Shown: piece by piece, positions 6,246-9,764 of the stretch | Layout: every line of letters starts with the position of its first letter | How positions within the stretch are numbered: the stretch's first letter is position 1 | Position numbers and translations under genes: made by a program | Notes under the pieces: model-generated | What the model saw: the letters and a program-made list of their open reading frames with translations, nothing else | The model's database searches: none | Told to the model about the DNA's origin: nothing | From: a bacterium | Lineage (GTDB): Bacteria > CSSED10-310 > JAFGSJ01 | DNA length: 64,000 bases | Assembly (NCBI GenBank): GCA_016934675.1 | Contig: JAFGSJ010000024.1 | Coordinates: forward strand, 1-64,000 | Direction of reading: 5' to 3'

Positions 6246-6322
6246 AGTGAGCAGAACTGTATCAAGATACCTTTGAGCTGTCATGAATGTGCTCCTTGCC
6301 ATATTCCTGATGGGGGGAAAAA

Positions 6323-7441
6323 ATGAAGATTATCCGGTATTACCGGGCCTTATGGAATAGCATGATCGGGCTGATATTGCTCTTGATAGCCGGTTTTCTA
6401 GTGATTGTATTGGCGGAATTCGGGATCATTTCCGAGCGGGAGACGTCCTATGCTGGTCTGCCGGATTACGATTATGTGGCGGACATCAGGAGCTTGAAGG
6501 CGGAAGGTAAGTTGAGCGAGGCTTTGGAAATGGCCCGTTATGTTGTTCGTCAGGGCGACATGCCGGGACATGAGCAAGCACAGCTACTGGCTTTGGAATT
6601 GGAAAGCGAGCTTAGTTCATTATGGGGCAGAGCCTGGCGTGTCGCCAATGGCTTTATCAAAGGTTCAGGCAATTCAATTGAAGAACTATCCGGTGGTATT
6701 GCCTCAGATCTGATCGTGTGGGGAGACATTCGCGATTTATTCAAGCAGGGTTACTATCGGATCACCGGTCAAGAGACCGATCCGCTTATCGTTGTCTTAG
6801 CGGGTGTCGGGTTGTTGACTGAGGTGGTCGATGCCGCGGATTGGGCCCCGGCTGTGCTCAAAGCGTTCCGCAAGACAGGCGCTTTGTCGCGTCAACTGGC
6901 TGATTATATCATCAACGCGGGTAAGCAATCAGTGAAAGTTGGTAAACTGGACGGGGCTTTAAAAACGGTATTCACAAACCTGCGAGGAGTAATCGATCAC
7001 GTGGGCTTGGCCCGGACGGCTGCAATTCTCAAACATGTCGATACGCCGGCCGATCTTGGGGCCTTGACCAAGGTGGCCCGTAAGAATGCCGATGCGGCTT
7101 ATTTTACTGTAAAAAATGGTGGCAGGGAAGGCCTGGATATCATTAAAGGCCTGGGTGACAGTGAGGCGGGAATCGAAGCCATGGCCAAGGCGGCTCGGAA
7201 AGGACCTGCCGGTATTCAGTGGCTCAAACGGAGCGGCTCGGGACATAAATATGTTCTCCTGACTCGGGTTGGTGCTAGAATTTTCAAGAATATCCGTCTT
7301 GATCGTCCCCAGCAAATCCTCATTGAATTGGCCAAGAAATACAAATACTTTCAGACACTGCTCTGGATCGTTACGATTACATGTTTGGCCGGGGCCTTTC
7401 TAGCCTTTATCCGGTCGGGTTGGATCGTTTTTCACAAGTAG
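6323..7441 (+). CDS. Bitopic membrane protein, unknown function
   Basis: A 372-residue protein with one transmembrane helix at the N-terminus (about 14-36) and one at the C-terminus (about 343-366), enclosing a helical soluble domain of about 300 residues. The soluble part is rich in Ala, Lys and Gly and begins with a TPR-like helix pair (LKAEGKLSEALEMARYVVRQGD). I recognise no family. A GGGGGG ribosome site precedes the ATG. It follows the PEP-synthase-like gene by 77 bases and could share its transcript, but a role in that pathway is not supported. Confidence 0.75.
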   Translation: MKIIRYYRALWNSMIGLILLLIAGFLVIVLAEFGIISERETSYAGLPDYDYVADIRSLKAEGKLSEALEMARYVVRQGDMPGHEQAQLLALELESELSSLWGRAWRVANGFIKGSGNSIEELSGGIASDLIVWGDIRDLFKQGYYRITGQETDPLIVVLAGVGLLTEVVDAADWAPAVLKAFRKTGALSRQLADYIINAGKQSVKVGKLDGALKTVFTNLRGVIDHVGLARTAAILKHVDTPADLGALTKVARKNADAAYFTVKNGGREGLDIIKGLGDSEAGIEAMAKAARKGPAGIQWLKRSGSGHKYVLLTRVGARIFKNIRLDRPQQILIELAKKYKYFQTLLWIVTITCLAGAFLAFIRSGWIVFHK

Positions 7442-7582: not shown

Positions 7583-7673
7583 TGCCAATTTCAGTTTGGT
7601 TAGTAAAAACGTTTTTCGTTAGAGTGACCTTATTATTCAGTGGGAATTCAACCTATTTCAAGTCAAGGAGGTC

Positions 7674-9764
7674 TTGATGAGAAGGACATATGTTCTGGGG
7701 CTCATCTGTATTTTCATGTTTAGTCTGATGGTCTGTCAGGGTTTTGCCTTGACGAACCGCCAGAACGATGTATTGAGAGCAGAGCCTGCTTCCGAGCAGG
7801 GAGGGATGGCGATTGGCACAAAAGGTTCGGTCCACGTGGGAGATACTGCACCTGATTTCACCAATCCGATTGTGCCCTCACCACAGACCTTCACACTTTA
7901 TGACTATAGCGGTTACGTTATTATGCTGAATTTTTGGACCAATACCTGAGGGTCATGTAAGGCGGAGGCTCCGCTTGTCCAAAACAATATTTGGCACCCC
8001 TATCAATCTCAAGGTGTGATGGTTGCATCATTTGATGTCGGTTCACAGACTCTAACGAACGCAACGAATTGGAAGAATACGTATGGATTAACCCATCCGG
8101 TCGGATACGACCAGGGTTACGTGGCTTGGGGCATGTATGGTGAAGGGTATGTCCCTCATAATGTCCTGATCGGTCAGGACATGACCGTTCTTTATTCTGA
8201 ATCCGGTTATGATGAGTCGGTCCTGATCTCAATAATCGAGGCCGAGTTGAATAAAGCCCCGACCAAGCCGACCAATTTTCATATTGTTAATGAAACTAAC
8301 TCGACCATATCGCTGGCTTGGGACCACAATCCCGAATCCGATGTCGAGGGTTATCGTCTGAATTACACGATTTATACCAAAGGCCCGCGGGTATTCAAAG
8401 CGACAGTGGATGTTGGTTATGTGAATGCATATACCTTAACAGGTTTACAAAGCAACTCGATCTATGAGCTGACGCTCGAAGCGTATGATCAGCGGGAAGC
8501 CCAACCGGCCGTACCGACAGAACCGCTGTATGCCGAAACGCAGGGCACTTGTGCCAATAATCCCACGGTCAATGTCACGCCCAACGGACCGTTTCATGTC
8601 TGTGTGGATACTGATATCGTCCTGACGGCGAATACAAGCGGAGGGACCGGACCATTCAGTTATCAGTGGCTCGAAGATACCAATGAAATCCCCGGTGCGA
8701 CTAATGCGACCTACACAGCCAGTTCAACCGGAACGCATCTCTATAACTGCAGTGTGTCCGGTAGCGGTTGCAGTGACGACAACCATGATGTGCAACGGGT
8801 CGTCATAACCTGGCAGGTGGTCCCGGACTTTGAAGGTATCATGTCGGTGACAGATGGGACAGAACAGACCTGTACCATTGATCTCGCCTGGTCCCCGGCC
8901 AGTTCGGTCTGCCCCGGTCCTTTTTTATACTCGATCTACCGCGATACGACCTCACCGGTATCTCTCATTCCGGCGAATTTGATTGCCTCGGGAATAACCG
9001 CCACGACCTATTCGGATGCCTTTAATCTCGAATATGGCCAGACCTATTATTATGTCGTCCACGTTACTGACCAAGTGACGGGGGGTGAGGACGATAATAC
9101 AATTGAGTTATCGGGTTCTCCGCATGGTCCGGGTAGTGGGGATATCACTTTTTATGAATTCGATTTTCAAAATGTGACGGAATGGAACCGTTGGGTAGTC
9201 ACAACCGGTCCTGGTCAACATACATGTGGGGCCTGGGCCCGGGTAAACACAGACAATCAGCGTCCTCCGAACAGCACCGGCTACTATGCTCTTTCCGATT
9301 CAGATGCGTGTGGTTCGGGTTCATGGACTTCCACAATCGTGACTTCACCCCGAATCAACTGTTCTGCGGATAATCTGGCCACAGTCACTCTTGAATGCGA
9401 TCTCTTTTATCGTCGTTACAATGGTGGCGATGCCGCAACAGTCGAGGTGTTCAACGGTTCATCCTGGCAGACAATCTGGACAAACCCAGCCGATTCAGTC
9501 GAGGAGCATTTTGCTTGGGATGTCACTTCTCAATTGGCCGGTGTCGGGATGGCCAAAATTCGTTTTAGTTATCAGAATGCCAATTATGATTATTGGTTCT
9601 CGGTCGATAATGTTAGCTTGACTGGATATATTTCTATGCCCTGTGAAACAGGAAACGATGTTCCAGCCCTTTCACCTCTGGCTTTGATCGGATTGGTTGC
9701 TTTACTGTCCGTGATGCTTATCATGTTTATCAAGAGAGGGAGACGTTTCGGCTTTAAGAATTAA
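7674..9764 (+). CDS. Secreted thioredoxin/FnIII/Ig protein with in-frame TGA (probable selenoprotein)
   Basis: The frame from 7674 to 9764 encodes 696 residues if TGA at 7947-7949 is read as residue 92. Residues 1-24 are a signal peptide. Residues about 45-190 are a TlpA/AhpC-like thioredoxin fold: GDTAPDFTNP, then NFWTNT-U-GSCKAEAP aligned with the usual NFWATWCGPCRAEMP, and a cis-Pro at YVP161HNVLI. The TGA therefore replaces exactly the first Cys of CxxC, giving UxxC. An FnIII domain (about 198-290), an Ig/PKD-like domain, another FnIII-like domain and a jelly-roll module follow. The C-terminus has a VPALS motif, a hydrophobic helix and KRGRR, like an IPTL-CTERM sorting tail. The start has an AAGGAGG site. 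TGA is an ordinary stop elsewhere here. The alternative is a nonsense-mutated pseudogene. Confidence 0.8.
7947..7980 (+). promoter_or_regulatory. UGA(Sec) codon with bacterial SECIS-like hairpin
   Basis: Directly after the UGA, bases 7960-7966 (AGGCGGA) pair with 7970-7976 (UCCGCUU) in a 7-bp stem with one G-U pair, leaving the loop GGC at 7967-7969. The apical loop starts 18 bases after the UGA and opens with two Gs. This agrees with the described bacterial SECIS pattern: a loop about 16-37 nt downstream with a G in the first two loop positions. Confidence 0.65.

Follow-up and report, generated by a model that had tools for sequence, protein, structure and literature searches.

The gene starting at position 7677 of the DNA analysed here very probably encodes a selenoprotein, probably exported, in which an in-frame UGA is read as selenocysteine (Sec) by means of a bacterial SECIS (bSECIS) hairpin and forms part of the UGSC active site of a thiol-disulfide oxidoreductase. 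The window, i.e. the whole stretch of 64,000 nucleotides that was analysed, comes from contig C162 of a 5.45 Mb draft assembly (G000; 169 contigs, 96% complete). Conservation of the UGA, presence of the Sec machinery, covariation of the hairpin and the redoxin fold of the product were all computed in this work.

An earlier note on this DNA, made from the letters alone, had claimed a long readthrough at this locus. The TGA is the sole in-frame stop before the TAA that ends the gene, and 604 codons follow it (Table 1). The alignment with TlpA-type proteins proposed in the same note also holds, the TGA being residue 91 and the first Cys of the CxxC within AhpC-TSA (PF00578; 47.8 bits, cut-off 26) and Redoxin (38.3 bits) matches, both over their cut-offs and covering residues 54-180. 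The gene thus shows an in-frame UGA opposite the Cys of its homologs, as expected of a bacterial selenoprotein. Pooling all searches, UGA occupies this column in 40 distinct genes, the window's included, and TGC or TGT in 94.

Table 1. Features of the predicted selenoprotein gene, in window positions
Feature	Positions	Strand	Basis and remarks
Shine-Dalgarno-like AAGGAGG	7665..7671	+	5 nt before ATG 7677; read in the sequence, putative function
Predicted selenoprotein CDS	7677..9764	+	695 residues, Sec at residue 91
Signal-peptide-like N terminus (MRRTYVLGLICIFMFSLMVCQGFA)	7677..7748	+	n/h/c pattern by eye; cleavage point guessed
ResA/TlpA-like redoxin domain, residues 54-180	7836..8216	+	Pfam, AlphaFold, Foldseek
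UGA codon, predicted selenocysteine, UGSC motif	7947..7949	+	Frame reading and homolog alignment
TGT, residue 94, second active-site Cys of UxxC	7956..7958	+	Invariant in 20-row alignment
bSECIS-like hairpin, 7 bp, loop GGC 7967-7969	7960..7976	+	Fold, covariation, covariance model, bSECIS rule
Conserved Pro at thioredoxin-fold cis-Pro position (YVPHN)	8154..8156	+	At least 90% conserved in 20 rows
Fibronectin type III domain, residues 197-273	8265..8495	+	Pfam PF00041, 42 bits
C-terminal region, residues 384-665	8826..9671	+	Mostly strands, poor AlphaFold model (pLDDT 50.4)
Hydrophobic C-terminal tail resembling IPTL-CTERM (VPALSPLALIGLVALL...)	9660..9725	+	17.0 bits, below cut-off 20.5

We infer from these data the insertion of Sec, the export and anchoring of the product, and the redox direction and substrate of the enzyme. 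In the proposed mechanism SelB and Sec-tRNA(Sec) would decode the UGA as selenocysteine, with the hairpin acting as the bacterial SECIS. The product would carry a signal peptide followed by the ResA/TlpA-like domain with its UGSC, the fibronectin type III domain and a C-terminal region with a membrane-anchor-like end. Sec91, in the place of the attacking cysteine, would most likely engage in thiol-disulfide exchange outside the cytoplasm, i.e. the reduction or isomerisation of disulfides in partner proteins, Cys94 would resolve the Sec91 intermediate, and the tail may hold the enzyme at the surface.

Domain architecture and relation to known selenoproteins

For the redoxin domain, modelled with AlphaFold at pLDDT 88.3, the best Foldseek matches were a Bacillus thiol-disulfide oxidoreductase and DsbE and ResA structures, and we take the Pro of YVPHN to play the cis-Pro role. 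From what is known of TlpA and ResA, a UxxC motif combined with a conserved Pro favours thiol-disulfide exchange; this combination likewise favours exchange in the window protein, for which reduction, isomerisation and peroxide removal are otherwise indistinguishable here.

The protein had also been described as decorated with fibronectin type III and Ig domains and as sortable. The first of these attributes was recovered by an fn3 match over cut-off, whereas Pfam gave no confirmation of Ig, an SprB repeat staying at 18.9 bits (cut-off 28). Sortability is no more than suggested: both the tail, scored with the IPTL-CTERM model (TIGR04174; Table 1), and the XrtH-like sortase of the genome (TIGR04177; 79.2 bits, cut-off 86) fall below their cut-offs. 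Elsewhere in the genome two further tails exceed the IPTL-CTERM cut-off, and a search of open-licence PubMed Central returned no paper on IPTL-CTERM with exosortase. Surface anchoring through the tail is plausible on this evidence, and export is probable from the N terminus; a signal-like hydrophobic stretch opens, by eye, all nine UGA genes of the same phylum among the matches listed. The region comprising residues 384-665 recurs in other long ORFs of the genome. Among six UGA proteins scanned with Pfam, matches over cut-off were to fn3 in the window's, to CBM_56 in two and to dockerin in two, and some other UGA proteins end in what we take to be T9SS-type tails.

The alternative that survives best accepts the selenoprotein as such and denies its novelty: it would be an ordinary Prx-like UxxC selenoprotein whose long tail is nothing special. 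PMC13188914 already tabulates UxxC selenoproteins of PF00578, PF08534 and cd02966, PMC9312934 the PF00578 UxxC kind, and PMC1088965 and PMC1794560 respectively describe Prx-like UXXC selenoproteins and list Prx-like thiol:disulfide oxidoreductase selenoproteins in Geobacter; fusions of thioredoxin-fold selenoproteins were reported in 2008 (PMC2398784). In addition, 14 of the 40 UGA genes are without a demonstrated long tail. Against it, counted from the active site, 26 of the 40 UGA genes continue for some 160 residues or more (four of the 26 being cut by the end of the fetched stretch), compared with 7 of the 94 Cys genes (Fisher p 1e-11, a test that ignores kinship and sampling). We regard this alternative, compatible as it is with our explanation of the gene, as unlikely, albeit as a contender to be taken seriously.

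Comparison with the described groups leads to a similar picture. With the Prx-like thiol:disulfide oxidoreductase selenoproteins (named representative WP_010940744.1) the window protein shares PF00578 and UxxC (as UGSC), a likeness of Pfam family and motif that would place it in that group; it differs in its length of 695 residues, its fn3 domain and its long C-terminal region. The TlpA-type fold and UxxC are common to it and to the thiol-disulfide isomerase-like and TlpA/redoxin selenoproteins (cd02966, PF08534) that appear in PMC1088965 and PMC13188914, but its architecture is different. With ResA, TlpA and DsbE (CcmG) it has fold and conserved Pro in common, and ResA is its best NCBIfam match, at 63.9 bits well under the cut-off of 170 (NF002854); unlike them, it has Sec for the first Cys and long extra domains. 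No NCBIfam model reached its cut-off in the five proteins scanned, and the highest score of the model NF041054 (WAxxUGC_long), 46.4 bits against a cut-off of 300, was that of a relative, the model not being listed for the window protein. The suggestion of the earlier note that such a protein may be new therefore stands in part: UxxC redoxin selenoproteins are catalogued in PMC13188914 and PMC9312934, and it is the long, probably exported multidomain form that is newer, our search of open-licence PubMed Central having retrieved no exported fn3-bearing redoxin selenoprotein. The kind is known and its large exported form seems to be little described. The prediction, drawn from sequence, is well supported, and its interest lies in the large, probably exported architecture and in its occurrence across uncultured phyla.

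Selenocysteine is costly to make. Its predicted use in large extracytoplasmic proteins of several uncultured lineages raises the questions of which extracellular redox job needs Sec and what reduces it. Automatic annotation easily cuts such genes at the UGA, so that the class is easy to miss.

UGA and Cys homologs

The read-through protein was searched against 145 genomes, and the matches listed include 24 rows with TGA. In 22 of these, the window's gene included, the TGA falls at the aligned column; in the remaining two (from G067 and G041) that column is Cys and the TGA lies elsewhere. At least 22 genes in 15 of the 145 genomes thus carry UGA at this position. Aligning homologs was one of the checks that the earlier note had proposed, and they hold either Cys or UGA at this column. 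UGA forms were found in records of CSSED10-310, KSB1, Krumholzibacteriota, Neomarinimicrobiota and Calditrichaeota, and, among the matches listed, in six of the eight genomes searched from the window's own phylum, presumably CSSED10-310; in the other two (G001 and G003) no stop lies inside the rows listed, though tRNA-Sec is present in both. Overall, 14 of the 15 genomes with the UGA form have tRNA-Sec over cut-off, compared with 65 of the remaining 130 (Fisher p 0.0016, kinship ignored). The one UGA-form genome in which it was not detected (G005) is 60% complete, and the 65 others with tRNA-Sec have no UGA form among the matches listed. A scan of a larger collection with a 10-row alignment, giving the best 80 of at least 182 relatives, found UGA at 9 of 88 places, a figure that under-samples UGA genes because the scan patterns coded Cys at the Sec site; five of these loci are on the same contigs as in G002, G005, G007 and G008. 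A plasmid collection yielded weak matches only (21 records, each spanning less than 80% of the query).

These homologs bear directly on the possibility that the gene is a pseudogene, or that the TGA is a true stop which yields a short secreted peptide. TGA is indeed a normal stop here, as had been claimed, and closes 13 of the 33 open stretches longer than 900 nt in the window (some of which may not be genes). However, the residues downstream of the UGA are conserved across 20 aligned UGA genes, and the frame, open over its 604 codons in the window, stays so for at least 98 codons past the UGA in the 21 UGA genes from relatives, which makes a pseudogene or a short peptide very unlikely indeed.

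The idea that the Sec form arose only once was set aside. On a tree of 134 rows at least 14 Sec/Cys changes are needed and the UGA genes do not form one clade, although they cluster beyond what shuffling produces (0 of 500); the starred branches force at least three changes. The tree was made with a quick method and is weakly resolved, with 56 of 131 inner branches drawn open and several long branches. Two adjacent UGA redoxin genes occur in G005 (L054:4214-6283 and 6313-7377, with 601 and 282 residues after Sec), and likewise in G058 (L059). Also encoded in the genome of the window is a Cys paralog from this redoxin subgroup (L050, contig C157), with WCGPC and a lipoprotein-like appearance by eye; it is without a hairpin fitting the bSECIS rule, and hence provides a natural internal control.

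Selenocysteine machinery and the hairpin after UGA

The earlier note had further proposed a search for the sel genes. The genome encodes all four of the components expected where a bacterial selenoprotein is made, each over its cut-off: tRNA-Sec (selC; 78.4 bits, cut-off 47), SelA (547.4, cut-off 267.9), SelB (395.7, cut-off 242.25) and SelD (363.5, cut-off 125). In SelD the motif GGCSAK presumably places Cys where some SelDs have Sec. A second selenoprotein is encoded on another contig (C29:9777-11786; L188), a formate dehydrogenase alpha subunit (768.5 bits, over cut-off) whose single TGA lies at a classical Sec site, CART-U-HAPTVAG, and is followed by a hairpin. Given the sel genes and this UGA-containing formate dehydrogenase, decoding of UGA as Sec is very likely used here independently of the redoxin gene.

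The 7-bp hairpin with a GG-starting loop that had been noticed in the sequence is present, beginning 10 bases after the UGA. The bSECIS rule, as given in PMC13188914, asks for a loop of 3-9 nt, a stem of 4-16 bp, G in loop positions 1-2, a distance of 16-37 nt from the UGA and an MFE of at most -7.5; the window hairpin fits it with 7 bp, the loop GGC, a distance of 17 nt from the UGA and -8.9 kcal/mol for a 23-nt core. As a single sequence this core folds better than most shuffles (z -2.03; 6 of 200 fold as well), and a 45-nt fold is not unusual (z -0.45; 60 of 200). Such a fold is weak evidence for the hairpin, the strong evidence being covariation. In 15 aligned UGA genes 92.4% of the cells of the 7-bp helix are paired, five of the seven pairs have changes on both sides, and cells changed on both sides number 22, where shuffles give 6.3 and slid controls 1-5. 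At the fixed position 25 UGA genes form a mean of 5.68 of the 7 pairs and the 94 Cys genes 2.86. Leaving out the energy term, the bSECIS rule with a stem of at least 6 bp is satisfied by 30 of the 40 UGA genes and 8 of the 94 Cys genes, and in its loose 4-bp form by all 40 and by 36, respectively, counts that lean towards the hairpin since it was the hairpin model that supplied 15 of the 40 UGA genes.

That covariance model (R1), built from the 15 UGA genes, was scanned against 386 genomes under strict filters and gave 31 matches at E<=0.01 in 23 of them, 15 being the training genes and 16 new. Each of the 30 matches that were fetched, 15 of them new, begins with TGA and has TGY as the third codon after it, i.e. 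UxxC, in a frame that is redoxin-like by eye. The model includes coding positions and is therefore not evidence from structure alone. In the genome of the window its one match at E<=1 is the window site, which says little on absence elsewhere because the site is in the training set and 150 of 756 first-look candidates were scored.

Together, machinery and hairpin also weigh on the idea that the UGA is read as Cys or Trp, through a changed code or a suppressor tRNA, rather than as Sec. A Cys reading would fit the protein, as relatives have Cys at the column, but many open stretches in the window terminate at UGA, the genome has the complete set of Sec genes along with a formate dehydrogenase bearing UGA at a classical Sec site, and a code change gives no reason for a covarying hairpin after the UGA; we give this idea very little credence. 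A misread or misassembled TGC or TGT in an ordinary Cys protein, as the codons of the 94 Cys homologs and the 169-contig draft might suggest, is a practically negligible possibility, because 39 other distinct genes share the UGA at this column, with a covarying hairpin.

RNA signal and protein sequence

The hairpin spans codons +4 to +9 after the UGA, and its codons GAG-GCU-CCG encode the Glu-Ala-Pro that follows the active site. At codon +6 GAG and GAA stand at 34:1 in the 40 UGA genes versus 41:47 in the 94 Cys genes. Among the same UGA genes Ala occupies residue +7 in 19 (GCU in 14) and Met in 1; among the Cys genes the figures are 13 for Ala and 32 for Met, kinship being ignored in these three comparisons. 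Met, Leu or His replaces the Ala of Glu-Ala-Pro in 60 of the 94 Cys relatives. In one relative (L058) the top pair A-U is flipped to U-A, with Glu changed to Val. These biases suggest that RNA structure shapes the protein along the hairpin stretch, and the Glu-Ala-Pro under the hairpin is a case in which the double use of a single mRNA segment, for RNA structure and for protein, could be tested. It is tempting to speculate, as a proposal that we advance tentatively and hold to be rather less than probable, that large selenoenzymes, exported or kept at the surface, form a broad class across uncultured phyla, absent from the catalogues cited above, in which the SECIS also shapes the protein (Glu-Ala-Pro).

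Genomic context

No electron donor was evident among the eight neighbouring ORFs scanned. The upstream neighbour (6323-7441) is an ORF of 372 residues for which neither Pfam nor NCBIfam gave a match at E<=0.001, and the other adjoining ORF is O6-methylguanine methyltransferase-like. Next to selB on contig C66, and divergent from it, lies an ORF of 1311 residues (L049:10531-14466) that is peptidase-like by eye and carries a tail, VPTLSWTG, in the style of that of the window protein.
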